A DNA stretch of 64,000 nucleotides. Source: Allacma fusca. Taxonomy: Eukaryota; Arthropoda; Collembola; Symphypleona; Sminthuridae. A model generated the notes under the pieces. The model was not told the DNA's origin. It was given only the letters and a program-made list of their open reading frames with translations, and ran no database searches. Positions within the stretch are counted from its first letter, which is position 1, and each line of letters begins with the position of its first letter. The position numbers and the translations under genes were made by a program. The stretch spans positions 4,278,001-4,342,000 of the forward strand of contig OX359246.1 of NCBI GenBank assembly GCA_947179485.1. Direction: 5' to 3'. Of the stretch, positions 15,425 to 63,692 are shown in pieces.

Positions 15425-16455
15425 ATTTCGGGTACTACCCGGGTACACTTCTTTCTGCTAAAAATTTCGGGTACGGGTATGGGTACGCGTACAAGGATTT
15501 GAAAATGAGTGGATACTTGGAGAATTGAGACATTTTGATGAGTCGTTTTTAGAAAGTGAAACTTTCTTATAGACGAGTCATTTCCGTCCGTCCGTCCGTC
15601 CGTCCGTCCGTCTACAAAATCTTGTAAATCGCACAACACAACAACGGAATGACATACGGACATGGGACTTGTCCCAAAAAATCGGACATACATTTTAGAT
15701 GTGCCTTTTGATATTTTCCCTGACCCAGGGTCAACTGTTTGACCTCTGAAAATTATTTTCTGGATACAATTATCAAAAAATCTTGCATTTGCTATACCTT
15801 TCCAACGGATTGATGTATGGACATGCGTCCTTTACAGATAACAATCAAACTCTATTTCCCTACCCTACTAAAAATCTTTAATTGTAAGTTTCACTTTCCT
15901 GCACATGCAAACAAAGTTTGCCCAAATCAGTGCAGTGCACGGATTTTTAGTCTAAGAACCTACAATACGTGTTTGTTTTTGCTGTGTAGCTAAAATTTAT
16001 GCTTTTAAGGACAGATGTTTAAGAAATAAACACGGAAGAGGAATTATTATAACAAAATGGAAGTGGAGTAAAGGATTCCCCGACACTTTGTACAAAATGT
16101 CTTCATATTGTAGTTTTGTCCCTAATTACATAGAGATATACGTGCATGATACTTCATTAGCCACAATGAATAAAATGTACAAAGAAGAGTTCCGGTGAGT
16201 TGGATGGCAAGTCATTTTGTGTTATTGGTAGTTGATTAGGAGGTGGACATTTTGTAACAAGATATTATGTAATGAGTTGTATGCAGACAGTTCTATTGAG
16301 ATGAAAAAATGAGTGGTATAAATTAAGAAGCGAAAATTCGAGTCGAGAGTCCCAACCAAAAACTGCAAATCAGGTACATATCAGTATGTCTGTGTACAAA
16401 AGTGCATTTACATGAACTGGGTGCCATAAAACGCTTTGACCATCATCCTATAAAC
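15425..16455 (-). mobile_element. old hAT family-B copy, left part (host of the hAT-A insertion)
   Basis: This region is an inverted relative of the interior of the family-B element at 18001-19940: the TACCCG-rich part at 15425-15500 matches 19740-19840, and 15960-16455 matches 18430-18720 plus 19390-19530. It continues after the hAT-A insertion at 20032-20788. Both family-B termini are lost. The pogo-type insertion at 18758 is absent here, so this copy shows that insertion's empty site near 16134 (GTCCCTAATTACA). Confidence 0.75.
15552..15900. mobile_element. possible small inverted-repeat element inside the old family-B copy
   Basis: GAAAGTGAAACTTTC at 15552-15566 and AAGTTTCACTTTCCT at 15886-15900 form an inverted pair. 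The sequence between them has no counterpart in the related element at 19530-19690, so it looks like an insertion. No clear target duplication seen. It contains a (TCCG)n microsatellite at about 15583-15612. Confidence 0.45.
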
Positions 16456-16501
16456 CAAAGGTGTTCGCCCATCCTATATATAGGCATATTTGTAGGCTAT
16501 T

Positions 16502-16630
16502 TATAGGGTGCAAGGATTTTACTGAATAGGCTTATAGGCAAAATAGGGTGCAAGGATTTTACTGAATAGGCTTATAGGCAAAATAGGGTGCAAGGATTTT
16601 ACTGAATAGGCTTATAGGCAAAATAGGGTG
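16502..16630. repeat. 40-bp tandem repeat, about three units
   Basis: Unit starting GGGTGCAAGGATTTTACTGA recurs with exact 40-bp spacing (16506, 16546, 16586), with a diverged start of a fourth at 16626. It lies in the left arm of hAT-A and contains that family's TATAGGC motif. Confidence 0.9.
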
Positions 16631-16950
16631 TAAGAATATATGTACACTTGAACCCTAGCCTACAAAATAGGTACATAGGCTCAGCCGTCGTGAAATTACA
16701 CGCATATATGTATAAGCTACTGAAGCACATAATTTTCAATTAATTGTATATGGGACGGGTAACATAAAAAGTAAAAAATAATCTGCCAGCTTTGTAGATT
16801 GTATGTTTTCCGGTGTGTACCAAGAGTGAAAATTTTGTGCCATTTCGCCTGGATATTCGCTGAAACCTCACCGAAATTAAGTTCGAAATATTCGATAAAG
16901 TAGAAAAGCTATAAATATTTACGTTTGAACAAAATGGCATACCCTAATTC

Positions 16951-17919
16951 CTAACGACACGAATCTAACGACTAACGACTAACGACTAACGACTAACGAT
17001 CACTAACGACTAACGATCACTAACGACTAACGATCACTAACGACTAACGATCACTAACGACTAACGATCACTAACGACTAACGACTAACGATCACTAACG
17101 ACTAACGACTAACGACTAACGATCACTAACGACTAACGACTAACGATCACTAACGACTAACGACTAACGATCACTAACGACTAACGATCACTAACGACTA
17201 ACGATCACTAACGACTAACGATCACTAACGACTAACGATCACTAACGACTAACGATCACTAACGACTAACGATCACTAACGACTAACGATCACTAACGAC
17301 TAACGATCACTAACGACTAACGATCACTAACGACTAACGATCACTAACGACTAACGATCACTAACGACTAACGATCACTAACGACTAACGATCACTAACG
17401 ACTAACGATCACTAACGACTAACGATCACTAACGACTAACGACTAACGATCACTAACGACTAACGATCACTAACGACTAACGACTAACGATCACTAACGA
17501 CTAACGATCACTAACGACTAACGATCACTAACGACTAACGATCACTAACGACTAACGATCACTAACGACTAACGATCACTAACGACTAACGATCACTAAC
17601 GACTAACGATCACTAACGACTAACGATCACTAACGACTAACGATCACTAACGACTAACGATCATTAACGACTAACGATCACTAACGACTAACGATCACTA
17701 ACGACTAACGATCACTAACGACTAACGATCACTAACGACTAACGATCACTAACGACTAACGATCACTAACGACTAACGATCACTAACGACTAACGACTAA
17801 CGATCACTAACGACTAACGACTAACGATCACAAACGACTAACGACTAACGATCACAAACGACTAACGACTAACGATCACTAACTACTAACGACTAACGAT
17901 CACTAACGACTAACGATCA
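16951..17919. repeat. hierarchical heptamer satellite, (CTAACGA)n with TCA spacers
   Basis: The basic heptamer CTAACGA is mostly organised as a 17-bp unit, two heptamers plus TCA, with occasional three- or four-heptamer variants. About 970 bp long, with few substitutions (an ATTAACGA near 17663 and ACAAACGA variants near 17830-17860, at the right end). It lies wholly inside hAT-A. It has no coding value; open frames through it are meaningless. Confidence 0.95.
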
Positions 17920-18000
17920 GTCTCCAATGACGGGACCGGGATCGGGACAGTTTCGGGATAAAATGTTTGTCCCCATGCTGATATATTCGGTAGTTTAAAT

Positions 18001-19940
18001 CAGTGCTCGGCACGGGTACGAAAAATCGGTACCCTTACCCGTATCCGTACCCGAAGTGGGGGTATTTCAATAACTGGTATCTATACCCGTACCCATACCC
18101 GAATATCCGGGTACAAATTTTTCGTACCCGTATCCGCAATTTAATCTCAATCCATGTACCTGTACCCGTATTGTACCCGTACCCGAAAAATACTCGAAAA
18201 TTGAACCCATACTCGGGTATCGCAGTGTCGTACCCGTACTCGTACCCGGGTACTTTATCCAGATTTGTTTAAATGTAATACATAGTACGTTATATGTAAT
18301 AACGTATGACACATGAGTGGGTAATTTTGACTACCTAGAGAGGTATTTGACATTGTATATTTTTATGGAAGAATAGAAAACTAGAAGCGTTTTTGATTAG
18401 AAGTAAAATTATTATTATCCCCCTTTGATTGTTTATGGGGTTTTATTTTATAGCACCCAGTCTATATGTACATGCATTTTTGTGCATAGAGATAATTAAC
18501 ATGCAGTTTTGGCTTGGGACTTTTGATTTTTCCCTTCTAGATTTATTCGGCCTTTTCCACTAATTTTCTCATCTCAGTAGCTTTGTTTGCATATTACTCA
18601 TTAATATCTTGTTACAAATATCCGCCTTCTCCTAATCAACTACCAATTACACAAAATAACTTGCCATCCAACTTTTTCGGAACTCAAATTTAAAAATTGT
18701 ATTAATTGTGGCTAAGGAAGTATCATGTACGTGTCACACAGACTCTTAATGTAATTACAGTAAAACTTGTCTATAGTGGTTTCTCTAGGGGAAAGAAAAT
18801 TTGACCACAATTAACAGGGACCATTGTGCCGGATATAGTGGTCCTAACCACTATATACAGTACTTCAAATTAAATAATTCTCACGCACAATTAACGCATT
18901 AATGCTTGCTCAGTATGCAATATTTTATTAGCAATTACACTTTATTAAAGTAATTACTAATTTTTGAATGCTTTAGACTTTTAATATTGTTCCTTGCGAG
19001 AAATTCTTGAAGGAAATGTACACATTGGTGGGCCGTTACCCAAGACGTCATAATTGTAATTCCCTTTAAAATAACTTCGAAAACCAATCATACCGAGCAC
19101 ACGTGTTATGGAATGCGCATGACGTTTTTGAAGTTGTCTAACTTCGCGCGATTTAAATTTACACTAATGTTTATTCGGACCACTGTATGCAGAGTTGAAA
19201 GCCTGCATTTCTATACGAATGGTCAATAATCCCAGACCATAACTGGCAGGGGACCACTATATAAAAAACTATTATAAGCGGGGTGTACGTAATGTTAAAA
19301 GATAGGACTTATGACGGGGAAACCTGACATGGGCCACAATGTGGAGGAAACCACTATATAACCGGCCACTATATACAAGTTTTACTGTAGTGACAAAATA
19401 CTACAATACATTATCAAACCGTATTATAATACATATTAAATAGTATTATGTAGACGTTTTGAAACTTCGTAGAATCCTATTCTCCACTTCTATTTTGTTA
19501 TTATTCCTCGTCTGTGTTTATTTATGTATTCTTCCTAAAACATGTTAGTCTGAAATACATTTGCTGCATTTTTACAATTACCTATATGTATTCAGAATTA
19601 CTAAAAATACCGACAGAAGTTTCCAACGGAAGTTCCCAGCATGATGGCATAAAATTCATCAAAATGTCTCAAATCTCAACGTATCCAAGTGCTCGGGTAC
19701 AATTGTCGCGGGTACGGGTAAATGACACCATTATACCCGTACCCGGTGGGTATATACCCTTTTTGAAATCCTTGTACCCATACCCATACCCGTATCCGTA
19801 CCCGAAATTTTGAGCCGACCAAAGTGTACCCGGGTAGTACCCAAAATTGTTCGGGTACACAAAATCGGTACCCGGGTAGTACCCATACCCGTACCCATAC
19901 CCGTTTACCCGAGTATTACCCATACCCGTGCCGAGCACTG
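18001..19940. mobile_element. hAT family-B element (TACCCG type), nested in hAT-A
   Basis: The terminal inverted repeats are CAGTGCTCGGCACGGGTA at 18001 and its complement ending at 19940. They are flanked by a perfect 8-bp duplication GTTTAAAT (17993-18000 and 19941-19948). Both subterminal regions (about 18010-18260 and 19690-19920) are packed with TACCCG/CGGGTA repeats that continue the terminal sequence. No transposase frame is visible. A pogo-type MITE sits inside. Confidence 0.93.
18758..19387. mobile_element. pogo/Tigger-type MITE nested in hAT-B
   Basis: Inverted ends CAGTAAAACTTGTCTATAGT and its near-complement ending GTTTTACTG are flanked by TA duplications (18756-18757 and 19388-19389). 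These ends resemble those of pogo-like Tc1/mariner relatives. The interior has several GACCACTATATA-type motifs but no transposase. The older family-B copy preserves the empty site. Length 630 bp. Confidence 0.88.
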
Positions 19941-20031
19941 GTTTAAATGTAGGCATATATGTATGTAGGCTCGGTCCCAATATTAAATATAGGAAGGATA
20001 TAGGGTAGGCTGAGTCATTTGGACACCTTTG

Positions 20032-20807
20032 CTATAAACTATCAAAGGAGAAAGATATTTGACTCCCCTACTTTATAGCAGCTTTTGTTTTAAGATTTTC
20101 CAAAATTGGTTCCATACTTGTAGCTCAAAACCATACTGCGATCAAGAAAATAAAACAAAACTTGCTTTGCTATTTTGCTTACAGGTTTGCTGCGTTTGCT
20201 TTACAGAATTGTTTTGAAATAATTTAAATTCAGAAAACACTTGATTTCCTCACCTGTCTTAACATTTCCACGTTTATTAGCCTAGGGATCCGAACCGTTT
20301 TTTTAAGGGATCAGACAAGGGGGAAACTAAACCCTTAAAATCATTCCTTTGGCCAAAGTACTGTGGCAAATTTTGAGCAGCAAAAGGAGAATATTGGGAA
20401 ATGCGATATTTATTTTACCTCTACTCCTATGCTAATGATGGAAATGTTCTACAACTTGTAAATACATACTTAATGCGTGTTGGGCATACTAAAAGACGAT
20501 ACTATGTAGTAATTCAATTTGCTTTAAAGATCTTCACCTATTCCATTCTACTTTTGATTTTTAAACACTTAAACACTATAGGCAATCCTTTGACGGATCT
20601 GCATGCATACAAATGCACGTTAATTTTATTTCTAATCGAAAACGCTTCTAGTTTTTTCTACTCGTCAATGAAAGTATTCAATATAAAATACCGCTCTAGC
20701 TAGTCAAAATTAAATGCTAAGATGTCATACATTATTACATACATGCAACTTACTATTATATTTAAACAAATTTGGATAAAGTACCCACTGTGACATAGCA
20801 CACCATA
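20032..20807 (-). mobile_element. old hAT family-B copy, right part
   Basis: Continues the element interrupted at 16455. 20620-20788 matches 18280-18420 (reverse complement), for example the shared CTAGTCAAAATTA and CAAATTTGGATAAAGTACCC regions. 20065-20610 has no partner in the window. A frame at 20401-20703 has no recognisable domain and I do not call it a gene. The family-B terminus is absent. Confidence 0.65.
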
Positions 20808-20984
20808 AATTTTAGCATGCAATTGTTGGTCTCATAGGATTTAATTTTTCGCGGTTCCACTCACGGCAAACACATGCACAAATGTAGAAATAACTCTCTA
20901 AACTACTAAACTGTACACTCCCTATGTAATTCTCGAATTAACTACAATGTAATCAAATGTTTAAGTTTTTATATTTTTTAAAAA

Positions 20985-22469
20985 TCATGGTTCAGGTACA
21001 TTCCGAATAGCCTTCAATGCATTGATAACCCCCCATCCAATTCTATTATTTGGTATCTGGTCATCGGGAATATCTCCACATATTTTTGGTACATCAATAA
21101 CAGCTGAGGTAGTGGAATTAAAAATAATTTTCTTGACGTCTTCCTGAGATAATTTCGGATTTTTTTGTACCAACAGGGCAATAACACCACCCACAATTGG
21201 AGTAGCAAGACTACACCCAGTCGCTATGTCAATGATGTCGTTGCCAAATTCGTAACGCGTGGCCATCACCTGATGAGCAGGGGCACAGATGTCAGGCTTA
21301 ATGAATTTCCCAGTTGGATCCGGTCCAGCACTCGATAACGTTTGATACTCGTCGTAGATGGTGGTTAGACCAACTCCTATGAACTCTTCGAAGTTACCAG
21401 GAGAACCAGTGGTGTTGCAAGCGGAGCCAACATTCCCAATGCAAAATACGTAATGTATATCAGTTTCTACCAAAACCTTTGTGATCTCACGGAAGAATTC
21501 GCTCGATTCCCCTGGGACTGTGTAATAGCTATTCGATATGACTCGGGGTGCTTTTGAGCAATTTTTATTGTTTCCCATGTGATCAGTCGGACATAGCATG
21601 AATTGGAAACATTCCAGGACCCAATCAGTGCGATATCTCCATCCTTTGTCGACGCAGTTACAAGCCATCCATTTTGCATTTGGGGCTACGCCCATACCAT
21701 ATTTCCCAGTCATGTGCCCCAGGCACACGGTGCCATGTCCGGTAATATCCCGTGGAACTTCGCCCATTTTGTCCGGATCAAACCAACCATACTCATCCGT
21801 ACCAATGAAGCTGTCATACACAACGTCATGGGTCAGACTAACTCCTGAATCAATTATTCCAACCACTACTCCCTGTCCGTCGTAACCCATTTCCCATGCT
21901 TTGGGTGCCTGAATTTTCCACACTGCCCAAGAGTATACACTTGCTTGAGTTACCTCCTTGTCGGAAATGGTGTCATTGTAGGCATATCTCTTGTCGGGTG
22001 GTTCGACATAAATTTCTTCCTTATTTATTTCTTGATCAGGCTCTAGTTTGAATGAAAAGATTTTGTCAATTTTTAAAACTTCGGTCAGGGCGGCGATTGA
22101 AGTTACTAAATCCAAGGAAGCTCCAGCAATGGAGACTTGGTTTGTGATCCATAAGGACCGAATACAAGATGCAAAATTTTTTTCCTTGAGCTTTTTCAAA
22201 ATGTTGACCTGACTGGATTTTGCGAGACTCTCCAATTCATCCGACAGTATTCGCAATTTTTCTCCGCGATCTTTGACAGATTTTGTCTGCTGAGAAATCT
22301 TTCTTAGAATCTCCGATGGACGCTGTTTGAATGTAACTATGACATCAGCAGTTTTTTCCTTCTCAAAAGCGATTTTTAATTGATCAGAAACAACTCCGCT
22401 GTTAGACCAAACGATTGTAAATTGGAGCAACACACTTACAATAACCAAACCAAATGGAATAAAATTCAT
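20985..22469 (-). CDS. secreted subtilisin-like serine protease (peptidase S8), gene 2
   Basis: A 494-residue intronless paralogue of the genes at 3071 and 52193, with the same layout: signal peptide, I9-type propeptide, then the catalytic domain with Asp207, His245, Asn346 and Ser420 all kept. It is the most diverged of the three by eye; clusters of changes lie in the propeptide-to-domain linker (about residues 144-165) and near residues 397-403 (APAHQVMATRYEFG). Its core promoter differs: the TATA present upstream of gene 3 is missing, although a TATAAATA lies about 35 bases further out. Function is inferred from the family; substrate unknown. Confidence 0.9.
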   Translation of the reverse strand: MNFIPFGLVIVSVLLQFTIVWSNSGVVSDQLKIAFEKEKTADVIVTFKQRPSEILRKISQQTKSVKDRGEKLRILSDELESLAKSSQVNILKKLKEKNFASCIRSLWITNQVSIAGASLDLVTSIAALTEVLKIDKIFSFKLEPDQEINKEEIYVEPPDKRYAYNDTISDKEVTQASVYSWAVWKIQAPKAWEMGYDGQGVVVGIIDSGVSLTHDVVYDSFIGTDEYGWFDPDKMGEVPRDITGHGTVCLGHMTGKYGMGVAPNAKWMACNCVDKGWRYRTDWVLECFQFMLCPTDHMGNNKNCSKAPRVISNSYYTVPGESSEFFREITKVLVETDIHYVFCIGNVGSACNTTGSPGNFEEFIGVGLTTIYDEYQTLSSAGPDPTGKFIKPDICAPAHQVMATRYEFGNDIIDIATGCSLATPIVGGVIALLVQKNPKLSQEDVKKIIFNSTTSAVIDVPKICGDIPDDQIPNNRIGWGVINALKAIRNVPEP

Positions 22470-22857
22470 TGTGAAGTGACGCTTCAGTTCCCTAAGTCTA
22501 CATGTGCTGTTTGCTTACTGTCCGCAGTACAATACAGTATTTATAGATAAAATATCATCGTACAATTGTATTGATTCATTTAATTCGAGAATGCTCATTT
22601 TATATTGTAATAAAGTATCGGTGTAAATTCGTCGAAACAATGATTCTTTTGTTTTCAAAATACGCACATTTGAGACCTTATATGTATTCGTGCTTTCAAG
22701 AATGTAGGTACAATAACTCGGAAGATTTATGGCACCCTTAAATGGATGCAAGTACCAACTATGTATGTAGGGGCAGCCCCAGAATTTTAATTCCAGAAAC
22801 ACTAGAGACAATAAGGGTGGCATTTAAGTTTCGAAGGAAACACTCACATTGGCATTA

Positions 22858-26446: not shown

Positions 26447-26559
26447 TTTAGTTGTTCAAATTTTTTGTTGAAGGGAATAAAAACAACCTCCTGGGCTTGT
26501 TGCTTGAGTAGAAGTGATCCAATCAGGATTTTCCTGATGGAATTAAAACTTGATAATTA

Positions 26560-27525: not shown

Positions 27526-28095
27526 CAAAGGTGTCCACCTATCCTATTTATAGGCCTATATATAGGATAAAAATAGGCAGGATGCAAAATCCAAGTAATT
27601 ATAGGTAGTAAAATAGGGTGCAGGAATTACCGCTAAAATTAATCCTATATTATATGTAGGAGCTGCAAGAGTTCACTTTTTATTTAGGAACAAGGTAGAC
27701 AGTTTGCGAAGTTAAAAATAGGCATATTTAATAGTCTATTGACAAATTTGTGAAGGAATGATTTGATTTAACCTTAAAATAAATCTCAAAAATATTCTTC
27801 AAATACGTGACATTTTAGTAGTTCGATTTTTTTCATGTGTTACGATTGCACGTACATACATAGATGATTTTTAGTTGAAAAAATAAGCCTTTATAGGCTA
27901 AAAAATAGGTCTTTGTAGGCTAAAAAATAGGCCTTTATTGGCTAAAATATAGGCAGAAACATAACAGGAATATATATGTAGGCAAATAGGTAGGTAATTT
28001 ATTTTTGATAAATAATGTAGGTTAATATGTAGGGAAGGCAAAGCTGCAAAAAATATGTATTATTTTAGGTAGGCTGAACCTTTTGGACACCTTTG
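27526..28095. mobile_element. hAT family-A element, 570-bp non-autonomous copy
   Basis: Ends CAAAGGTGTCCA and TGGACACCTTTG, with a perfect 8-bp duplication CGACTTGG (27518-27525 and 28096-28103). Interior is dominated by TATAGGC / AATAGGC motifs, as in the arms of the family-A element at 16456. No coding frame. Confidence 0.93.
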
Positions 28096-28725: not shown

Positions 28726-29970
28726 CAGAGCTGCGCTCAAGTACAAGTATTACTTGACACGTACCAAGTCGGGTTAAGTTCGGGTCAAGTTCGGGTTGAG
28801 CTTTTAAATGTAGGTGATAAATAGGGTCAGGTACAAGTAAAAGGGGAATCCGAACTTGGTAATTCAAGTCGGGTAAATTGCAAGTGCAGGTTGAGAAATT
28901 ATACTTGCATCAAAATATCTTGCAAGTGCGAATCTGAGCTCATAGAATACCTGCACCCGAACGTGTAAATGCAAGTATTATTTCAAGTATTTTGATTCTC
29001 AATAAAACGATTTTTCAAATGCCCCACCGGTTCAGTCATACTTTTTCCCGAGAACGAGCTGCTTTCGCGCTCATAATGAAAACGTTACGGTATCGTTAAG
29101 CATACGCATTACTCCGCAATGTTTGGAGGATAAGGACTAGACGAGGGTTCCGTTTGCTTTCGGATTCACACTTCATAGTACACGGGTATTGTAAGTACAT
29201 TTATTTTTTTATATACAAATGAGTTCTCGTGCTCAGAAATAATATTATAGAATTAACAGAAACGGGTCATTCTGCAAAACCGGAGATTGAGAGGACTTTC
29301 AATTCTACAATTGCCCATCAAGATTTTACATATAATGGGAGTAGAGAATCTTTATGAATTTAATTACTGAAATTAAGTACTTATAATTTTTAATTATTGG
29401 ATTTTTTATAAATGGTGTTCGCTTCTTCAAATATCGCCTGTTAATGTTATCAGACACTGTTCATACTTGTCTTTGCATAAAGGGATGGTTGAAATTTAAG
29501 AAACGCGACGATTATCTCAAGCTGAGAGCTACTGCGGTAGTGCAAAGAATACTGGGGGATGCGTAATAATAGCTGCAGCAATCAGTTTGTTTGTAATTAT
29601 GTAGAATAAATATGACCACCTCACTATAACTTCTTAACATCAATCTTTTGTTTTATTAAAATATTCCCCACAATTTGTTCCGTAAAATGTAATTTTCGTT
29701 GTGTTGCAGAAATTATAGTATGAAGTTTTATATTTTAAAAAATTACTTGTAATACTTGAAATTCAAGTTCGGGTTCAAGTTCAGGTTCAAGTTCGGGTTA
29801 CACAATTTTGGAACCGAATTGCAGGTATTATTTCAAGTTCAGGTAGCTCAAAATATACTTGGTTAAAATTACTTGAATGGTCAAATACTTGACAAGATTC
29901 AAAATACCAAGTTCGTGTCCATGCAAATTAATACTTGCTAGTTCAAGTGCAGGTCAAGTTCAAGCTGTCA
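28726..29970 (+). mobile_element. hAT family-C element (CAAGTTCGGG type) with transposase tail
   Basis: Left end CAGAGCTGCGCTCAAGT equals that of the complete element at 48296. Both flanks (28740-28990 and 29740-29970) are packed with CAAGT/AAGTTCGGG motifs. The right end is degraded and no target duplication was found. Around 29450-29570 the plus strand encodes CLCIKGWLKFK followed by about 25 residues and a stop, closely resembling the tail of the miniprotein at 62747-62903. This is the C-terminal end of a hAT transposase. The catalytic core is missing. Confidence 0.8.
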
Positions 29971-42772: not shown

Positions 42773-43385
42773 AGTGCTGCGCCCGGGTCAAGTATTTATA
42801 AAGATTCGACCACGAATACTCAAGCACGTATTTCAAGATTACTCGAACTTGACATTTTCAGATCAAGTATTACTTGAATGGAACAAGTTCGGGATTTCAA
42901 GTAAGTAATTCTCCGATTACTTGACCATGATATTCTCATACCCACGTTTCGGGTCCAACTTCAACTTGACTTGACCATGACCCGAACTTGACCATGACCC
43001 GAACTTGACCATGAACTTGAACTTGCAAGTACAAGTCCCTGATTTGTACGACACCAAAATACCTAAATTTTAATGGAGAAAAATGTATATTTGTAATGAA
43101 AGTGAACGTAAACTGGCAACGCTACGCACGTATTCAAGGAAAAAAGTTAAATTAAAATTGAATAAATGATTTTAAACAAACCTCATGCCAGAAATTTTAA
43201 ATCACAGCCTTTTTGTTTTATTATTTCCCAGATATTTTTGGTACTGTTTTGGCTATTTACAGTACGAAATACACAACACCAAATTGACACTAGCTTTCAC
43301 CAGGCATCTTACTTACTTGACCATAACCCGAACGCAAATTTGACTTGAAATATCCGTGGTCTACTTGTACTTGAGTGCAGCTCTG
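42773..43385. mobile_element. hAT family-C element, 613 bp
   Basis: Ends AGTGCTGCGCCCGGGTCAAG at left and GAGTGCAGCTCTG at right. They are flanked by TTACAAGT and TAACAAGT (7 of 8 match). Both arms are rich in CAAGT / ACTTGACC motifs, for example three ACTTGACCATGA-type repeats near 42967-43015. Non-coding. Confidence 0.8.
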
Positions 43386-47778: not shown

Positions 47779-49815
47779 TTAACCCTTCGCTGAACTATCC
47801 CGTTCCTTCAACACCTTCATCCTCTCCACCACAGCTGTATTATCAATATTATGCTCCTTATTGTAGTCGTAAACAACATCCAACTGCTGCTTCTCTAGCC
47901 CCGGTATCCTCTCCCACAAAGTCTTCCCCAGAACATCGTCCATATCATTCTCCTCCCGAAGGACACAGAAGTACAGGAGGACTGCAGCCGTACTCAAAAT
48001 CACCGAATAAGGTTGGATCCAAGGTTGATCTTCATGAAGGGTCCCTCGGAAAGTCTTCCTGGCACTCCACGTCGAAGCTTTACTTGTGCTAAACTGTATG
48101 GGCTTGTCCAAGTCATCGTCATCGTCTTGTTTCGATTTCGTACTTTTGTAACTGTAATAAATATTCCAATTATCTTCAATTGATTTCTCCCAAACTTTAC
48201 AATGACAATGACAGCATATCATTTCAAAAAGTATTCCAGTGTCTTTCACGGAAGTCAGTGTATTCATAATTTCGTACTACAAATGTTATTACACTCAGAG
48301 CTGCGCTCAAGTCAAGTAAATCCCAAACTTGACCCTGAACTTGACTTGACCCTGACAGTCAAGTAGGTTTTTCAGACGGTCTTGAACTTGACGGTTCATG
48401 GTCAGACAATGACTTGAAAATTCAGGGTCAAGTATTCAAGTACTTTCCGCGTAACTTGAACCTGGTCAAGTATAGCAGGGACAACTCTTGACTTGACCAT
48501 GACTTGACCATGACCCGAACTTGAACTTGACTTGAACTGTCAAGTTTTTTAAAAAAATAGAAAAATAGTATTCACACTTAAAATACACCAAGTACACCAT
48601 TTATGGTTAAAACTTAGCAAATAACAATATTATTCACAATTGTCAAGCTTCTCCAAGTAAATTTTGAGTTGCTGCTTCAGTTGGATATTTTAATGTCTTG
48701 TGTTTTAGTTTTAGCCAACCTTCAATCACGAGAAACTACGAATAGTCTCTGCTAATTGTAAGGTAAACAGTCTTTTAGAAGTAAGTAAATCATTTCCCAT
48801 TGAATTTTCCTGTTAATAATAATTACTTACGCTAACATTCAAGTTTGGGTTGTGCTTCACTGAAAATATCTACAGTTCAGCGTCCACCCTGTTAATGAAA
48901 CAAACTGGCTTATGTGGTAGTGTTTAACGTTTTACAGATGTTAAATTGTTTAGAATGAAAAGAGTACTTGGATTTAAGTAACTTGATTGATTAACAACGC
49001 GTTTATTTTATACAACAATCGAACATTGAACACTGTTGCTTTCATAGGTGCTGCTCCAAAGTTTTTATATTCGTTTTCTTTCGTTCACTATTACAGCTGT
49101 GGCTTTCCAATATCTAGAGATATTGAATCGTAACCCAAAAATATGTAGTTTAGAGGAACATGTATGGATACGGAGTCTCGGAGCAACGATAACATTATGA
49201 AAGAAAACCTATTGAAATATATAGTGCCACAACTTCGATATGCGTAACGTTTCGTTACTTGAATAAGTACTTGAAATACTCATGGTTCATGGTCAAGGAT
49301 TTATACATTTTTACTTGACCATGAACATGACTTGACTCTCAAGTAGAATTTTTTGTCTTGACCATGATAACTACTTGATTTCAAATCTCAGGGTCAAGTA
49401 GAATAAATAACTTGACCATGCCTTGAATGTTCAAGTATCCATTATATTTTACTTGACCATGACCCGAACTTGACCATGACTTGAAATACTCATGGTCTAC
49501 TTGAACTTGAGCGCAGCTCTGATTACACTATTCACATCTAAACACCAAAAATGTCACACGATTTGATATCAAATGTCTGTCAGTTGATTCGCTAGAAATT
49601 ATTACTATTAAATTGCATCTACGGCCGTGCGAGTTATTTACTAAAGTTTTATTATTTTGAATATTCAATTAATTGCTAGTAACTTACCGTAACTGACTAA
49701 ATTGATTTAACACTATTAGGTGGCATTGTTTCTTCAGACTTTGCAAAGGCGTTTTATCCGCTATTTTAAATAACAACTGATTCGGAGATATGGCTTTCCG
49801 AAGAAGAGTATTCAT
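47779..49815 (-). CDS. UQCC4: CCSMST1-family complex III assembly factor, with hAT in intron
   Basis: Exon 1 (49815-49688) encodes a mitochondrial presequence: MNTLLRKAISP..., basic and amphipathic, with no acidic residue before Asp26. It ends at CG|GTAAG and joins in phase 2 to exon 2 (48151-47779; acceptor TTTATTACAG), giving 166 residues. After the junction QLRYKSTKS come an acidic stretch and the family block DKPIQFSTSKAS, a single membrane helix (PYSVILSTAAVLLYFCVLRE) and a charged tail. This pattern matches the CCSMST1 family, named UQCC4 in vertebrates, an inner-membrane factor in cytochrome bc1 assembly. The 1536-bp intron holds a complete hAT element; without it the intron would be about 300 bp. 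A frame starting at 48267 is open but reads the intron. Confidence 0.8.
48296..49521. mobile_element. hAT family-C element, 1226 bp, complete ends
   Basis: Ends CAGAGCTGCGCTCAAGT and CTTGAGCGCAGCTCTG with a perfect 8-bp duplication ATTACACT (48288-48295 and 49522-49529). The arms consist of CAAGTCAAG / TTGACCATG-type motifs (48310-48545 and 49250-49510); the centre is A/T rich with no transposase seen. It lies in the intron of the UQCC4-like gene. Best reference copy for family C. Confidence 0.95.
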
Positions 49816-50285: not shown

Positions 50286-50545
50286 GCTGGGGACAGGGAC
50301 GTCCCGTCGGGACACTGGACGGAACGGGACGGGACGTCCCCGGGGACAAAATAATTGTCCCCATGTCGTATTCGGGACGGAACGGGGACAAAAAAAAATT
50401 GTCCCCATTATATTCGGGACGGGGACAAAAAAAATTGTCCCCATTATATCAGGGACGGGACGGGGACAAAACAAATTGCCCCCATTATATTCGGGACGGG
50501 ATATTCTTTTTGGTCGTGTATATAACGGGACGGGACGAGCAAGCA
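50286..50545. mobile_element. GGGACG-motif repeat element
   Basis: Built of GGGACGGGAC and GGGGACAAAA...TTGTCCCC blocks, with four GTCCCCATTATA-type units in series. The left edge CAGAGCTTCTGCTGGGGACA looks like a hAT terminus, but the right end and target duplication are not clear. A related piece (GGGACCGGGATCGGGACAG) lies at 17934-17975. The open minus-strand frames across it are repeat artefacts. Confidence 0.6.
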
Positions 50546-51511: not shown

Positions 51512-51711
51512 NNNNNNNNNNNNNNNNNNNNNNNNNNNNNNNNNNNNNNNNNNNNNNNNNNNNNNNNNNNNNNNNNNNNNNNNNNNNNNNNNNNNNNNNN
51601 NNNNNNNNNNNNNNNNNNNNNNNNNNNNNNNNNNNNNNNNNNNNNNNNNNNNNNNNNNNNNNNNNNNNNNNNNNNNNNNNNNNNNNNNNNNNNNNNNNNN
51701 NNNNNNNNNNN
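51512..51711. other. assembly gap, 200 N
   Basis: Exactly 200 undetermined bases. The satellite ends on the left and the third S8 block starts on the right. The length is probably a placeholder. Confidence 0.98.
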
Positions 51712-52140: not shown

Positions 52141-52148
52141 TATATAAG
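52141..52148 (+). promoter_or_regulatory. TATA box of S8 gene 3
   Basis: TATATAAG, 45 bases before the ATG. Best match to a TATA box among the three paralogues (gene 1: GTATAAG; gene 2: lost). Confidence 0.55.
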
Positions 52149-52192
52149 CAAATAGCAGATATAGTCTTACGGAACTGAAGCGTCCCTTTACA

Positions 52193-53677: not shown

Positions 53678-54398
53678 TTTATAAAAAAATAAAAACTTGA
53701 ACATTGGAATACATTATAGTTAATTCGAGAATGACATAGGGAACAGTAGTAGTTTATAATGTCATCTTTATATTTATGCATGTGTTCGCCCCCTGGCTAG
53801 AACCCTGTCTCACCTAAAATTAAATCCCATGTAGCCAAAAAACGTGAGACAATGGTACATTATAAATACTTGATGTAACTCTGCTCTCTAAAATTTATGG
53901 CACGCCACGTTCAAATATTCTGGTTGATGATCCATTACAGTTATGATTCTTACAATTAAGTTCCCAATAAGTATAGGTCCCGTGAAATAGCAAATTATCA
54001 TAGATGGGGCTTTTATCCCACTACCCTGATGCGCCGATGAAGAGCTATTACTTTCGATATAATCTGCGCGACTGTCCCTATTTGATTGGACGTACTCCCA
54101 CTCAACTGGTCGAACTAGGCTTCTCACTGTTGTGTGAGTAATATTTTCGACGTATAACATCTAAAAGTCCGAAGCAACCATTAGACTAATTTCTTTCACC
54201 TCGCAGCTACCCTAGACATTGTGGTTGAAGGCTGGAAAGGCGACGAAGGCTGGACGAAAGGCCTCTGCTCTTTGCAGAAATAATGGAATGTGAAGGAACA
54301 TGGTAATTTTACAGCCTTCGAACGCCGTTGGAACCTGCAATCCCATTTACTATATTTTAGACAAAATCCTTCCGTAACTAAAGCTCATGTACGTACGT

Positions 54399-55235
54399 TA
54401 AAGGCGTGGCCCGCAGGCTATTCCCCAACCCAACCCCAGTATTACCCGCAAACACGTAACCCGAACCCGCCCGACCCGAAATTCAACCTCTGAAACATCA
54501 GCCCGCCCCGTCCAGACCGTGATTTTTTAGGCCCGCGCCAGACCGCAGCCCGCCGGGTTTCAGTTGACACGGCCCGACCCAGCTTGCGGGCCCCCGCGGG
54601 GGCCCGCATATGTTTCGTGCAACGCTATCACGCTCCATCACAATGTCTAATAAACCGTAGAAACCGAAAAATAAATATTTTCTGAGCCTTTTAAATAACT
54701 GCAGCTGGTTTTATTTTTAATCCATGTCATATTATGCTTGAAAATCACTTCGCAGGAATTGTTAACTAATTGTAAGAATACTGCGCTAAGAAATTCTACA
54801 TGCTTTTGAATTCATATCAGGACCTTCAAAACGTTACAAGTTACAACAAGTCACATCCACAGCAGGATAAGCGAGAAACACTATAAAACAGGAGTAGTAA
54901 CAACCAACAGTTACAAAGGCACAAACATGTGAGCTCAAATGGACGCAAATCATATAATTCTACTGGAAAAATCCTAAACGTAGTTGATTGAAATTTAAAC
55001 GTTTTGCGGGTTGCTTGCGGGCCCAAAGTATATTTAAGTCTAGCCCGAACCCGCCCGCAACCCGCACTATGTGCATAAAGTACAGCCCGACCCAGCCCGT
55101 TGAAATACGACAAAAACCCAGCCCGATCCGCAACTTGCAACATGACAAAGCACTAAACCCGAACCCGCCCATAACCCGCACGGGCGGGTCGGGCCTAAGC
55201 CCGACCCGAATTTTTACCCGCGGGCCACGCCTTTA
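54399..55235. mobile_element. hAT family-F element (CCCGACC type)
   Basis: Ends TAAAGGCGTGGCCCGC and GCGGGCCACGCCTTTA, flanked by ACGTACGT on both sides (54391-54398 and 55236-55243; the duplication is itself palindromic, so the edge could shift by a base or two). Arms are dense in CCCGACCC / CCCGAACCCG motifs; the centre is A/T rich. No transposase. Confidence 0.9.
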
Positions 55236-55332
55236 ACGTACGTACACCGTTACTCAACTGAAAAAAAATTTTCTTGCGGGCCTGCTTAATGTTATTCTAG
55301 AGTAGAAACATTTATCTCAACATGGCAGTATT

Positions 55333-56178: not shown

Positions 56179-56567
56179 AGCATGATACCCGGAGAAGTTT
56201 ATTCCCTTCACTGTGCATAAGTAGATAAATACTGATAATCTGCAATAATTGCAATTAATTGCAAACTAATTACTATCTTTTCAGAGATAACTAGTTTGAA
56301 GTTTAAAACTCTGATTTTGTGACTTGTGTTAAAACATGCGATAAATAAATAAATATGGAAGGAAGGTAACGCTTGAAGGGTTTTTAACTATTTTCTGAGG
56401 GCTGTAGGAGTGATTATAGCAGGATTTGAATGAAGGAAGGGCGAAGGAAGGGTAAATATTCAGAAGGCTTCATTTTACGGAACAACAAAAGAACGGTAAT
56501 TGGAAGCGGTCCTCCTTCTGGCGGATGAACGAAGGGGATTTCAATTGGACACCACTGATGTCAGTAG
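56179..56567. other. non-coding stretch between hAT elements
   Basis: Nothing recognised; several GAAGGAAGG-type simple repeats at 56360-56530. Confidence 0.4.
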
Positions 56568-57483
56568 CACAGATGCGCATCCACAGTTTCGTTACGTTAC
56601 GTTACACTATTTCGATAGGTTTTAAAATTGTCGTTACATTTCTAAATACCGTATGAAACATTCAGCGTTACCGTTCCGTTACTACAAGACAATGGTAATA
56701 CTCCAGCGTTAATTTTCATTACCATTAAAATATTTAAAAAGCCGTTACTTTCCGTTACCGTTACTATTATTGTCCGCTCGTAATAAACTAAAATGTCAAA
56801 CAACTATTGTTGCCAGACGTTCCTGGTATGCAGAAAATGTAGCGGAAAGGCAATTTACAGTTTCTGTGTAGTTCTTGATTCACCTGCAATGTGATCCGCA
56901 TCCCGACTACCCGTTGTGGTAGTCTCAACATTTGTCCTTTTTTCAAATTCATTTTTCTCCTTTTACTAGATTAATTTAAATTTATTAAATTTAATTAGAA
57001 GAACTTAAGATTATTTAGAATTTAACTAGAACCAAACCGATCACACGTCGTTTTTTTTGTGAGCAAAAGCGTGTAGATTGAGCAAAATAAAGGGTCAAAT
57101 CCTTCCTGTTGAAATTTGCCATGTTTTCCATAACGTACATAAATGATGCTCAGGGAACAGGGTGTCCACACCGAACTCAAGTTGTTAATATTTCCTCCGT
57201 TTATTTGCATGCACAGTTACTCCAAGCAAAGCCAATAATAGATGTCAATGTATGCAAAAATAAATATGTACATGCATATATGTATTTGATAGCGTTGCGT
57301 TACGTTACAATATCGTCATCTGTTTACACAAGCTGGAACGCTATAGTTATTCCGATACATGTTTAGCACACCCGGGTTCCGTTACCGTTACGTTATTGCC
57401 TGCTCCAAATATAGGCCGTTACGTTAAAAAACGGCGTTATTCCGTTATTGTTGGGTAAAAGTAACGTAACGGGCGCATCACTG
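56568..57483. mobile_element. hAT family-H element (CGTTAC type)
   Basis: Left end CACAGATGCGCAT and right end GCGCATCACTG are imperfect inverted repeats; flanks GTCAGTAG and GTCTGTAG match at 7 of 8. The arms are rich in CGTTACGTTAC motifs (56590-56765 and 57295-57475). Frames inside show no domain. Confidence 0.82.
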
Positions 57484-58021
57484 GTCTGTAGTAAACTCAG
57501 AGCTATGCAAAATACTTGGTCTTCAATGACAAAATACAAAATAAAATACCTCAAATAAAATATGGAAAATACAAAATACAAAGTAAAATACCTCAGGTTA
57601 CATTACTAAAATACAAATAAAAATACAATACATCTTAGGTAATTTAAAATACTCAAATACAAAATACTGTATTTTAAATACAATACTTTCCTTAACATAC
57701 CTACCTAATGCTCACTCTTTTTGGTTTCTAGAACACAAATTGCTTTAAGCATCACTGGTCAGTAGTAAACTCAGAGCTATGCAAAATACTTGGTCTTCAA
57801 TGACAAAATACAAAATAAAATACCTCAAATAAAATATGGAAAATACAAAATACAAAGTAAAATACCTCAGGTTACATTACTAAAATACAAATAAAAATAC
57901 AATACATCTTAGGTAATTTAAAATACTCAAATACAAAATACTGTATTTTAAATACAATACTTTCCTTAACATACCTACCTAATGCTCACTCTTTTTGGTT
58001 TCTAGAACACAAATTGCTTTA
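57475..58021. repeat. 274-bp tandem duplication across two hAT elements
   Basis: The segment starting GCATCACTGGTC at 57475 is repeated from 57749, nearly identical over 274 bp. It covers the last bases of family H and the first 250 bases of family I, so it happened after both had inserted next to each other. Confidence 0.92.
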
Positions 58022-58726
58022 AGAAGCCTTTTAAAACAATCAGATAACTAATCACTTCAAAAACTGCATATAAGGCACATGAGTAACACATTTTTCAACT
58101 GTTGCCGAATAGGTCAGCTCATTATAAGTAATTATTATTTAAGTCGTTTTGACTCTTAATGAAGTACATAATATATATTAATATGAATTTTTTATTTATC
58201 AGTAATTAAATGTATGTACTTCCGAAATAATTATTATGACACAGAGTTAGTATCTGAAAATTAAATCGAGTCGGTCTTCGGCGTACCTAAAATATCGTTG
58301 GTGAAGAAGCAAAATGGTTTGTGCTGTACAAAAGCATGCGCGCGTAGACCATTCAGCGTTGCCTTTCAGTGACGATATGTAATACCGAGAACCTGAACGT
58401 ATTTGATGTAGTTCAGGGATTCATTCCAACTTATGTTATTCCAATGCTAAAATGGAATTCTCACAGATATTGCACATCATACAAGCTACATACAATGTCA
58501 AAGTCAGAAATCATAGGTGAAAAGTATTTTGAGCCAACTTTATTTGAAATACATTTCACATGTCATTGAGAGTAAGTAAATACCAAATACAATTGTACTT
58601 ACTGGCTCTTAAAATACTAAGTACAAAATACTTGCCCACAGGTTAGCAATTTTGAAATACAAAATACTTTGTGGTCCGAAAATACGTATTTTAAAATACT
58701 GTATTTGAAAATACTGTATAGCTCTG
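57498..58726. mobile_element. hAT family-I element (AAAATAC type)
   Basis: Ends CAGAGCTATGCAAAATACTT (57498, again at 57772 through tandem duplication) and GTATAGCTCTG (58726). The flanks AGTAAACT and ATTAAATT match at 6 of 8. Both arms are made of AAAATACAAAATAC-type runs. The centre (58030-58570) has no recognised coding sequence. Confidence 0.8.
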
Positions 58727-58913
58727 ATTAAATTACGAAAACGCAACTGTTTACTGTGTACCCTTTCAAGTTTCTGAATGGTTCTATTTAAAATACATAT
58801 CTTGCTTATACATAAGTGCTCAAATAATTTTCTCCAATATATTAAATTATTCCTTTCTGATTGTTTCAAGAAGTAACTTGTCACCAGCCGTAACTTTCTC
58901 ATAAAATTGCTGT

Positions 58914-59590: not shown

Positions 59591-59707
59591 GTAACTCAAA
59601 GGGTTGGATCAGAATAAATCCTTGCATAGTAAGTTCAACTTCGAAACCCTTTTGATTCAAGCACTGAAAACTATTTCATTTGAAATCCGGTACACAATAT
59701 TGTAAAT

Positions 59708-61932: not shown

Positions 61933-62554
61933 ACGTCAGCGTCGGATCTGGATCCAATATCGGTAACAACTCTGAACGAGCTAGAATCTGTCGTTTCAGC
62001 TCCCTCTCGAATTTACCACTGGAATTTTCAACTGGGGAGGCTACAGGCCTGGCATTCAAGTTCAAGTAAAACTTGACAAGTTCATGTCAAGTTCGGGTCA
62101 CAAGTTAATTTGAACTTGATATTGAAACCTCAAGTTTGGGTCAACATGAAATTTGAACTTGATTTTAAGGTTCGAATCAAGTTCATGGTCAGGTCTTCAT
62201 TATAGACTTGACATCAATACCATGATCAAGTTCGGATCACATAGCCCCAAAACCATGAACATGAACTTGACTTTTCATGGTCAAGTGTCAAGTTCTTATA
62301 CTCATATAATACGCTATAGATAATCGTTCTTATGCAGATGTCCTTGCTGAAGCTGTAAACGCTAATTTAAATCACAGCGTTTTCGCGTGCAAATGCTAGA
62401 CCGGTATTTCTGTGTTTTCAACGAGCAACGTGCTCCGGGCTCAAATATTAGAAGCAAAATCTTTCCTGTTGTATTTTCTTCTTCACAACATCTTTTTAAT
62501 TTTAACTTGATTTAAATTTTTGAATAATCATATTATTTTAAAAACAACTGGAAA

Positions 62555-62903
62555 ATGAGCACATCTGAAAAATCTCAACAGTGCGAAGAAGATGCTGATC
62601 CTGGAAGTCTAACTACATCAAGTAGCCAGAAAAAATGGCCTAAGGTCCACAAGCATTTCACATTTTGCGATTCTACAAAAAAATACAGCTGCAAACACTG
62701 CTCGTAAGTGTATTCATATATATAGGTATATATATACCTGTTTCAGTTGTCCTGGCACAGACCTACTAACTCCTAAAAGAATGTTAGAAGACATCATTTG
62801 TGTTTGTCTGTGCTTGAAGGGATGGTTGAAATTCAAATCTCAAACCAATTTTGATGAAATCCGTGCCAATGCGGTCATTCAAAAAATCCTACGGGAAATC
62901 TAG
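62555..62903 (+). CDS. BED-finger miniprotein, internally deleted hAT transposase
   Basis: Exon 1 (62555-62703) encodes 49 residues and two bases of a 50th; exon 2 (62747-62903) completes it and ends at TAG. A 43-bp intron has GTAAGTG and CCTGTTTCAG. The 101-residue product starts MSTSEKSQQC and carries a BED-type zinc finger (W-x6-F ... C-x2-C in KKWPKVHKHF and YSCKHCS). It then jumps to the transposase C-terminal tail (LLTPKRMLEDIICVCLC, KGWLKFK, ... ILREI), with the whole catalytic RNase H-like core absent. Both halves are open and in phase across the splice. BED fingers bind transposon ends, so the product could compete with full-length transposase; that is inference. The second C-x2-C/H pair of a complete finger is not obvious. 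Confidence 0.7.
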
Positions 62904-63051
62904 TTATTTTTATATTCTCTTATTTTAAGTTTTATCAATCATTACTTCTAAATTTTGATATTCAATTTTAAAAAATAAATGGTAATTAAATCTCAGGTAA
63001 TTTGTTAGCCTTTATAATTATAAGTATACATACAACACTATAACTAGAAAT

Positions 63052-63176
63052 TCAAGTTCATGGTCAAGTTCATGGTCAAGTTCATGGTCAAGTTCATGGT
63101 CAAGTTCATGGTCAAGTTCATGGTCAAGTTCATGGTCAAGTTCATGGTCAAGTTCATGGTCAAGTTCATGGTCTAA
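63052..63176. repeat. 12-bp tandem array TTCATGGTCAAG
   Basis: About ten near-perfect units in the right arm of the family-D element. A minus-strand ELDH-repeat frame is an artefact. Confidence 0.95.
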
Positions 63177-63692
63177 GTTTTTCTGAACTTCATGGTCAAG
63201 TTCCATTTATGGTCAAGTTCGCCGAAATTAACTTGATTATGTGAACTTGATTACTCCGGTTCGTACCTAATTTTAAAAAATCAAGTTCAAGTTCGGATCT
63301 TAATTTTGGTGATATAATCAAGTTCGGGTCAAGTTCAAGTGCGAATCATTAGTTGAACCGAACTTGAGGCCAGGCCTGGGAGGCAAGTGTGATCCATATT
63401 TCCTTCATTCTTGAGAAATCCTAAAATAATGGGGTGACAAATCAGTTTATCTTACAATTATCTAATTATCTAATAATTATATATTAAAAAAATGATTCTG
63501 CTACCCCCTACGGTCTTTGCCGATTGTTTGAGAAACGAGGTTGGTCTTGGATTTAACCTTGATGGTGCTGTTCTCTATGGAAGGGAAAATGGTGCTGATC
63601 AGCTTAACAGAGCTGATTTATGAGGAGATATCCATAATACGAACTCCGCTGAGGAGATGAATAGTTAATGAACTTAACTTTTTTAATGAAAT

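Follow-up and report, generated by a model that had tools for sequence, protein, structure and literature searches.

Largely family-private subterminal repeats in hAT-like elements of Allacma fusca

It is an open question how a transposase and the element ends that it reads keep their match as both evolve. The question was posed for the CACTA elements (Spm/En, Tgm), in which family-specific subterminal repeats are read by a DNA-binding protein, by authors who asked how fast repeat and protein coevolve (PMC2613891). Unlike the hATs described here, CACTA elements form another superfamily and use a separate TNPA-type protein (PMC2613891). A 64-kb stretch of the Allacma fusca genome (contig OX359246.1; hereafter the window, with positions counted from its first letter) raises the same question for hAT-like elements, as several families lie side by side and most carry their own repeated word at the ends.

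The window was scanned for 8-bp target site duplications (TSD) combined with terminal inverted repeats (TIR), and two mononucleotide block shuffles served as the control. The scan gave 17 rows in the window, against two and three in the shuffles. Seven rows correspond to A1, A2, B, C, F (twice) and D, five lie inside the arrays of I, and the remaining five are taken as chance. H and I were bounded by reading and E from the left tip together with the limits of matching copies; the family letters E and J were introduced here. The TIRs of hAT elements are short and typically start with YA; the tips in the scan are CAAAGG, CAGTG, CAGAG, CAGGC and TAAAGG. Eight families (A, B, C, D, E, F, H and I) are hAT-like; most show target duplications of 8 bp, and all are multi-copy genome-wide. 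The TSD is perfect (8/8) in A1, A2, B, C and F.

Element A1 (16456..20031; strand is given below only where assigned) has the TIR CAAAGGTGT (10/12) and the TSD CTATAAAC. It contains a 17-bp satellite and a nested B, and its left end holds four copies of TATAGGC at 16479-16613. The nested B (18001..19940; TIR CAGTGCTCGGCACGGGTA, 12/12; TSD GTTTAAAT) carries its word, CGGGTA, 30 times in 520 bp of ends, and its left 260 bp are matched at full length at 40 of 40 scored places (96-100%). An older B copy on the minus strand is represented by a right-half remnant at 15409..16242, with inverted repeats (I2-I5 and I8) against 18629-19863, and a left-half remnant at 20037..20786, in which 20621-20786 is inverted against 18248-18411 (I1, I6). 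The two halves appear to have been separated by A1. The stretches 20037-20230 and 20589-20786 match the transposase loci L015-L017 beside their B end; these loci were considered as the B transposase and rejected, the B end there being read as an insertion. A2 (27526..28095, 570 bp; TIR CAAAGGTGTCC, 12/12; TSD CGACTTGG), with weak AATAGG/CCTATA words, is matched from tip to tip within 1 bp at 40 of 40 scored places.

Three features share the word ACTTGA or its group in the middle of the window. E (28726..29964, plus strand; TIR CAGAGCTGCGCTCAAGT) has the word in both ends; its right tip is uncertain and no TSD is established. Among its copies, 36 of 41 rows begin at most 8 bp from the left edge of the query and extend to query position 1237 or further. 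A relic of a hAT transposase C-terminal tail in E (29447..29566, plus strand; LSDTVHTCLCIKGWLKF up to a stop), recognized by eye, is similar to the tails of loci L092-L098. A partial end of the ACTTGA group, found by reading, lies at approximately 42773..43041 and starts with the tip-like AGTGCTGCGC. It contains a 17-bp tandem at 42969-43014 and matches the arrays of L092, L093, L096 and L097; a TSD was looked for here and not found. C (48296..49521; TIR CAGAGCTGCGCTCAAGT, 12/12; TSD ATTACACT) holds ACTTGA 31 times in 520 bp of ends, and 30 of its 48 copy rows span 1-1226 at 96-100% identity.

F (54399..55235; TIR TAAAGGCGTGGCCCGC; TSD ACGTACGT; words CCCGC/ACCCG) has a palindromic duplicated stretch, and edges of 54397-55237 fit the scan too; 35 of its 43 copy rows are nearly full length. 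Of family J, only a right end was identified (56305..56557, plus strand), with the word GAAGG, a tip ending in GGACACCACTG at 56557 and an 81-86% match to the 3' side of locus L011. H (56568..57483; CACAGATGCGC / CAGTGATGCGC; TSD GTCAGTAG/GTCTGTAG, 7/8) has CGTTAC 16 times in 520 bp, and a match to its left end lies on the 3' side of transposase locus L026. I (57498..58726; TIR CAGAGCTATGC / CAGAGCTATAC), whose TSD AGTAAACT/ATTAAATT agrees at only 6/8, holds AAATAC 26 times in 520 bp of ends; it carries a 274-bp duplication, with a tandem at 57475-58023. D (62044..63378, plus strand; TIR CAGGCCTGGC; TSD 7/8) has the word ACTTGA and a 12-bp tandem, TCAAGTTCATGG. It contains, on the plus strand, a relic of a BED-like first exon (62555..62702) with the C..C half of the finger (translation ..WPKVHKHFTFCDSTKKYSCKHC) and, by reading, a relic of a hAT C-terminal last exon (62747..62903). 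Taken alone, the first piece gave no Pfam match and the second no PF05699 match. From 62848 to the right tip, D is 81-89% identical to L092 and L093. The relics in D and E are the only transposase sequence in the window.

The word content of the ends was assessed by comparing the top hexamer of both ends with 300 dinucleotide shuffles per element. It was reached in 0/300 shuffles (p 1/301) for nine of the ten window elements, among which A1 is discounted because its top word, CGGGTA (0 left, 11 right), belongs to the nested B. For E, H and I, the edges used in this test differ from the final ones by 1-2 bp, and the second duplicate copy stood for I. The exception was G (AGTAGGC; p 0.053), for which the window scan found no TSD either, and this family was rejected. 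The initial annotation had counted at least eight hAT-like families, several with perfect or near-perfect 8-bp duplications; this description suits A, B, C, D, E, F, H and I.

Words learned on one end were also counted on the other. These held-out counts are 15/13 for B, 12/17 for C, 13/12 for D, 6/3 for E, 6/9 for H and 8/12 for I, and fall to 2/2 for F, 1/2 for A2 and 3/0 for G. The top word of A2 is AAAATA, with AATAGG and CCTATA ranked lower, and the best words of F are GCCCGC, CCCGCA and ACCCGC rather than the CCCGAC proposed earlier. Over the whole window and both strands, the words first proposed were found, against expectation, as follows: TATAGGC 13/7.8, TACCCG 53/16, CAAGTTCG 18/1.6, CCCGAC 19/10, AGTAGGC 5/4.8, CGTTAC 34/26 (clustered) and AAAATAC 63/21. 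The earlier proposal that each family fills its ends with its own word is thus borne out at both ends of B, C, D, E, H and I, is weak for A and F, and does not extend to G.

Such arrays might be simple repeats that arose by replication slippage near the ends and play no role in transposition. Tandem blocks do occur in A1, C, D and I, and the 12-bp unit of D ranges from 4 to 31 copies among 22 bounded D copies. Against this origin, the repeat finder gave no or only short tandem blocks in the window elements B, C and H despite their frequent word, and the same word is found at both ends, is present in the inner TIR and ceases some 300 bp from the tip. Slippage is an improbable source. In D, the one window family with readable copies, the arrays are tied to element ends, as a TSD of 7/8 or 8/8 lies exactly at the match edge in 28 of 30 fetched copies (the window copy included).

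Elsewhere in the genome, PF05699 scored above cut-off at 150 of 150 scored places (860 candidates) and in H*, the transposase partner of H. Thirty transposase loci were examined and 12 were extended, mostly for a visible array (L007, L009, L011, L012, L014, L019, L022, L024, L026, L027, L028 and L030), the other 18 being left out; L027 was excluded from the tests as a near-duplicate of L022. Six of eight last-exon loci were extended for their arrays (L077, L079, L080, L081, L082 and L084), and L078 and L083 were left out. The result is a set of 17 transposase-bearing hAT loci which, being mostly picked for a visible array, is no proof that every hAT has one. At the threshold applied, no 7-mer was enriched in six of the 30 transposase loci; L026, which is among the six, does have CGTTAC as a 6-mer. 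Eight further loci were chosen by tail similarity alone, and every one of them carries ACTTGA-, CAAGTC- or ACCTGA-type repeats as an array at the end.

Transposase-bearing here means that a locus carries transposase sequence; the term implies no claim of activity or of a frame that stays open throughout (the BED exon of L084 is frameshifted). Thirteen of the 17 loci are bounded on both sides, with a TSD of 8/8 in 12 and 7/8 in one. The others are one-ended (L007 and L009 right, L024 and L082 left), and a looser search for the missing ends of L007, L009 and L024 gave nothing convincing. The tip scan of these loci required C or T followed by A, so that it could detect this tip type only, and most composites gave further, weaker TSD rows, among which the row with a hAT-like tip and an array was preferred. 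Two arrays were rejected as own ends: a CAAGT block downstream of L014, outside an element whose word is AAGGCA, and an ATTTGAG array that falls outside the TSD of L027.

In the 13 bounded elements, the own word occurs 4.00 times per 100 bp in the first 50 bp, 3.31 at 50-100 bp, 3.08 at 100-150 bp, 2.38 at 150-200 bp and 1.12 at 200-300 bp. Beyond 300 bp, the density is 0.08, 0.08 and 0.05, with 0.04 in the deep interior and 0.04 in the outside flanks. Since each word was chosen on the profiled ends, the held-out count is the fair test: words learned on one end were found 175 times on the other, against 3.5 expected. Up to 15 hexamer copies are present per 260-bp end (L028), and many families repeat their word roughly 10 to 30 times close to the tips.

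The words are largely private to one locus or its close kin. Across the 17 loci, the mean is 14.4 own-word copies, against 0.35 at the ends of other loci, and five or more copies occur in only 6 of 272 off-diagonal cells. The exceptions include AGTTCA of L030, found 14 times in the ends of D, and GAACTC of L022, found six times in those of L077. This privacy bears on the idea that the elements exploit host proteins (transcription factors, insulators or silencing factors) that recognise the words. Clustering within 300 bp of an end that possibly holds a promoter would fit, but shared factors should favour shared words, and the words here are mostly private and at both ends, which makes a host origin highly improbable.

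Alternatively, a small number of promiscuous transposases might mobilise the many non-autonomous families, the words being neutral lineage tags. Word similarity does track overall transposase relatedness, as expected from shared descent, and the search yielded no partner for A, B, F or I. On the other hand, the 17 loci fall into about 15 word groups, and words differ even in the pairs L081/L084 and H*/L009, whose dimer region is 76-83% identical. In L094 and L098, the inner TIR and most of the array read ACCTGA, whereas related loci read ACTTGA; independent drift of copies is unlikely to make tip and array differ jointly, though gene conversion might, as might a renewed expansion of the array. 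Neutral tagging is on balance quite unlikely. The search for autonomous partners proposed in the initial annotation yielded loci with matching ends and word for H (L026), D (L092 and L093) and also J (L011), and a close relative for C (L097).

The window probably holds mostly non-autonomous hAT elements, the arrays of which would be family-private subterminal repeats for transposase binding. This reading is drawn from bounded elements with TSDs, from one word common to both ends and nearly absent from interior and flanks, and from the partner loci of H, D and J together with the relative of C. The N-terminal BED-like finger of each transposase would bind the repeats, the many sites would draw a transposase multimer to the ends, and each transposase, requiring a word that matches, would be largely confined to its own family. 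Words seem to change in concert, as in the ACCTGA arrays of L094 and L098. Inner copies need not matter much, as the LEmut2 donor of the housefly hAT Hermes, with putative left-end BED sites mutated, keeps about 70% of activity (PMC10368747).

The relation between word and finger was assessed by Mantel tests from which the first 14 bp were excluded. Word similarity declines with transposase distance and correlates with BED identity (r 0.52, p 0.0002, 136 pairs). The correlation falls to 0.30 when pairs above 50% BED identity are removed, and common DNA ancestry may account for part of the likeness in the closest pairs. The BED effect is significant when the control is the 55-residue dimer region only (r 0.32, p 0.001), but not given the whole rest of the transposase (partial r 0.08, p 0.17), and an effect beyond relatedness was taken as not shown. 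The four contact positions, given the rest, behave similarly (r 0.09, p 0.16). Two further proposals found no support and were rejected. One was that base-contact residues change most: the Hermes-contact positions have 38/72 mismatches against 443/804 in the rest of BED (p 0.71, 18 pairs). The other was that the BED finger evolves faster than the rest: across 11 pairs, its identity differs from that of all exons by no more than 0.12. Prediction of the motif by the BED domain, put forward for testing in the initial annotation, is not borne out by these comparisons. The joint diversification of arrays and transposases is supported for the transposase lineage, with largely private words whose similarity falls with distance, although among pairs with BED identity of at least 0.35, 6 of 18 have word similarity below 0.15.

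The finger itself was aligned in 17 pieces with a C..C...H pattern. Pfam zf-BED is above cut-off in six of 14 families scanned (L028, L030, L079, L080, L081 and L082), below it in L009 and L077, and without a match in D (first exon only), H*, J*, L012, L014 and L022; L007, L019, L024 and L084 stood outside the scan. Two BED pieces searched against the PDB returned no informative match. The words could instead be read by another transposase domain, and word similarity is better accounted for by the remainder of the protein (partial r 0.41, against 0.08 for BED). This comparison is weak, because some 50 residues of finger give a noisy distance and a summed bit score stood for the remainder. The BED helix of Hermes makes base contacts with the subterminal repeat (PMC10368747), and reading by another domain is considered unlikely.

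Reading by the finger has precedents. The Hermes transposase binds subterminal repeats, the AAG(T/C) copies (17 left and 14 right) being read by BED fingers (PMC10368747). The ACTTGA families here likewise contain AAGT, and L082 has N and R at Hermes N67 and R70. Unlike in Hermes, the words differ by family, are counted as hexamers and are known from sequence alone, and L030 shares S, N and R at three contact positions, yet its AGTTCA lacks AAGT. In Anopheles gambiae, the Herves transposase binds subterminal CG/AATTCAT, repeated at both ends, and its authors state that hAT binding sites differ, thereby ensuring specificity (PMC3143072). The words GATTCA of L079 and AATCGA of L081 overlap that site, a likeness at the level of the word; one family was described there, against 17 transposase loci of one genome here. 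BED proteins of the CGGBP/hAT-19 type are hAT-derived and bind many DNA motifs, and for all four hAT proteins that yielded a motif, it matches their own subterminal region (PMC8097297). Proteins, mostly of domesticated genes, were measured in that study, whereas element ends and arrays are compared here. The initial annotation knew of no description of such a range of motifs. This stands narrowly, as different subterminal sites per hAT are in print (PMC3143072), and so are distinct motifs for at least eight hAT-derived proteins of a single genome, that of the coelacanth (PMC8097297). The subterminal repeats are best read as a known hAT feature, of which the range here is unusual.

More tentatively, one genome may hold several hAT systems insulated from one another, every one with an end code of its own, and a switch would involve tip, array and transposase jointly (ACTTGA/ACCTGA, CGTTAC/CACTAC and AATCGA/GTTTCA); this is possible rather than probable. 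If true, it would provide a natural series for reading the recognition code of the BED finger, and would imply that at each end at least ten binding sites were replaced in concert, with escape from parasitic non-autonomous copies as a possible driver. With at least 17 transposase-bearing loci, about 15 word groups and several close pairs with different words in one genome, the matching question becomes directly testable. End words would help to trace non-autonomous families to their sources, and the pairs of enzyme and candidate binding site, in which the word tends to change with the transposase, form a natural set for study.

Scanning the window for inverted tips flanked by 8-bp target duplications returned 17 rows; two shuffles gave 2 and 3. 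Of the 17, seven correspond to the hAT-like elements A1, A2, B, C, D and F, the last of these being hit twice; another five fall within the arrays of element I, and the remaining five are taken as chance. The edges of H and I were set by reading the sequence, and those of E from its left tip and the edges of its copies. As we read it, 15409-20786 would be a triple nesting, in which A1 (16456-20031) interrupts an old reverse-strand copy of B, leaving it in two pieces (15409-16242 and 20037-20786), and itself contains a younger B (18001-19940). The interior of A1 holds a 17-bp satellite, ACTAACGACTAACGATC (16971-17919, 56 copies, 90% matches), and nested in B is an inverted-repeat element, TGTAATTACAGTAAAACTTGTCTATAGTGG (18750-19395), resembling a pogo/Tigger-type short element. 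A 274-bp tandem duplication (57475-58023, 99%) takes in the last 9 bp of H, and thus probably followed the insertion of H beside I; the target duplication of H retains its GTCAGTAG form in the second copy. Elsewhere in the window, three alike 509-aa ORFs (3071-4600, 20985-22514 and 52148-53677) look like subtilisin-type (S8) peptidases, minus-strand ORFs at 7930-13238 look like a BEL/Pao retroelement, and a 25-bp tandem array, GAGCATAGGACTTTATAATGTGACT, spans 30944-31443 in 20 copies.

The initial annotation described family-specific motifs, here called words, arrayed just inside the element ends. With the outermost 260 bp taken from each end, the top hexamer was reached by none of 300 dinucleotide shuffles in every window element except G. 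CGGGTA occurs 30 times in B, CGTTAC 16 times in H and AAATAC 26 times in I, while the single word ACTTGA is common to C (31 copies), D (27) and E (13); F has nine copies of GCCCGC-type words. When the word was learned on one end and counted on the other (held out), the result was strong for B, C, D, E, H and I and weak for A2 and F, and G failed. The description is thus upheld for the first six and weakly for A2 and F; G as a hAT family with its own word is unsupported. AAAATA ranks first among the hexamers of both ends of A2, with AATAGG and CCTATA lower. The top word of A1 was discounted, as it belongs to the nested B. Arrays of GGGAC/GTCCCC words at 50341-50501 and 17920-17985 are perhaps the ends of another hAT family.

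The genome examined comprises 392.7 Mb in 91 contigs; the window is C8:4278001-4342000, and its ORFs appear to be of an invertebrate kind. Forty loci were scored per query, and the candidate totals are first-look figures: 427 for A2, 1049 for the left end of B, 1344 for C, 280 for D, 749 for E, 359 for F, 400 for H and 1114 for I. All 40 scored A2 loci match tip to tip within 1 bp. Copy-level reading covered D alone (30 copies, including that of the window), and in 28 of the 30 the match edge is flanked exactly by a target duplication of 7/8 or 8/8. Among the 22 copies bounded by a stricter pattern, the duplication reaches at least 7/8 in 21, and the 12-bp unit TCAAGTTCATGG is present in 4 to 31 copies per element.

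A genome-wide profile search for the hAT C-terminal dimerisation domain (PF05699, the dimer region) yielded 860 candidates, and all 150 places scored were above the cut-off. Seventeen distinct transposase loci (L-numbers) were built by adding small neighbouring stretches; most were selected for a visible array and are not a sample of all hATs. An enriched 7-mer is found in 24 of 30 transposase loci, not always at an end. Thirteen of the 17 are bounded on both sides: L026 (H*), L011 (J*), L012, L014, L019 (target duplication 7/8), L022, L028, L030, L077, L079, L080, L081 and L084. In these, own-word density per 100 bp is 4.0 in the outer 50 bp, 0.08 beyond 300 bp, and 0.04 in both the deep interior and the outside flanks. 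Held-out counting gave 175 matches versus 3.5 expected. The L019 element is itself enclosed, in the L071+L019 composite (491-4691), by a hAT-like element with a 7/8 target duplication and AATCGAATTGAAT arrays, whose word resembles that of L081.

A search for autonomous partners had also been proposed, and transposase-bearing partners or close relatives were matched for H, J, D and C. On its 3' side, the transposase locus L026 matches the left end of H at 72-74%, with CGTTAC in common and a similar tip, and the right end of J (56305-56557) matches L011 at 81-86%. L092 and L093 resemble the right end of D at 81-89% identity and have a protein match over query residues 2-80 of 83 of a last transposase exon. 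D looks like an internal-deletion derivative, since it retains half of the exon for the BED (the N-terminal zinc finger) together with the terminal part of the last exon. For the left end of C, the matches are L097 (74%) and L095 (68%). E matches L098 at 69%, but their words differ, making L098 a relative rather than a partner. By eye, the tip and word of A are similar to those of the AGG-word group (L014, L019, L024). Among the subset of candidates looked at, no partner transposase was found for B, F or I.

The words are largely private. Across the 17 loci, the own word averages 14.4 copies, and 0.35 in the ends of other loci. Only six of 272 off-diagonal cells reach at least five copies, five of them within L011/L012/L019 and L079/L081, and the sixth being GAACTC of L022 in L077. 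Joining L011 with L012 and L079 with L081 leaves about 15 word groups among the 17 loci. In the window ends, AGTTCA of L030 occurs 14 times in D and five times in C, and CGGATA of L028 five times in B.

The words track transposase lineage. Similarity of words, compared as 5-mers over the 136 pairs of the 17 loci, rises with BED identity (r 0.52, p 0.0002) as well as with dimer-region identity (r 0.46, p 0.0002); once pairs exceeding 50% BED identity are removed, the two coefficients are 0.30 (p 0.002) and 0.27 (p 0.004). With the dimer region controlled for, BED retains r 0.32 (p 0.001); with BED controlled for, the dimer region retains r 0.19 (p 0.03). The rest of the transposase, measured as summed bit score with BED masked, retains r 0.41 (p 0.0004) given BED, and BED given this whole rest r 0.08 (p 0.17). 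The suggested co-diversification is therefore supported at the level of lineage, but not a BED that predicts the motif. The four positions aligned to the base contacts of the Hermes BED (PMC10368747) are not more divergent than the rest (38/72 vs 443/804), and the r that they contribute is 0.09 (p 0.16); the finger as the cause of word differences would follow by analogy with Hermes. The link is loose: of the 18 pairs whose BED identity is at least 0.35, six fall below 0.15 in word similarity, and L077 and L082, with 45% over the exons matched, are at 0.07. Close pairs with unlike words include L026 (CGTTAC) and L009 (CACTAC), with 83% in the dimer region and 52% in BED, and L081 (AATCGA) and L084 (GTTTCA), with 76% and 55%.

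An apparently concerted difference in word runs through the group that includes D, C and L082, as read in the 260-bp right ends of L091-L098. L092, L093, L095, L096 and L097 have 14-22 ACTTGA and 0-1 ACCTGA each, and L091 has eight ACTTGA, no ACCTGA and 11 CAAGTC. L094 and L098 have two and one ACTTGA, nine and 10 ACCTGA, and 12 and eight CGGGT (0 or 1 in the other six). Their tip is CAGAGCTGC..TCAGGT, compared with CAGAGCT...TCAAGT in L091, L096 and C of the window, indicating the same substitution in the tip and most of the array. In L098 the BED sequence is KKSIVHQHFTFNEESNKYICKNCK + KSFKREPRSSTGNLMKHLKTKH; the residue immediately preceding the first zinc histidine is K there and R in L082; that this difference bears on the word change is a lead only. 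A dispersed repeat common to window 5002-5275 and the 3' flank of L082 (438-714) seems to interrupt the right end of L082.

The principle is established by PMC3143072 (Herves), PMC10368747 (Hermes), PMC8097297 and PMC2613891 (CACTA), the last of which poses the question of coevolution for CACTA. No genome-scale comparison of hAT end words was recognised among the matches listed, subscription journals being mostly outside the scope. The pattern, with its element boundaries, arrays, privacy in the main and partners for some families, is real and well-formed and of a known kind, and its range in one genome is unusually wide. Most likely, each transposase would draw its multimer to its own ends via many sites; the private word would separate families, and non-autonomous derivatives would be mobilised only when the word is retained. 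The set of close pairs is testable.
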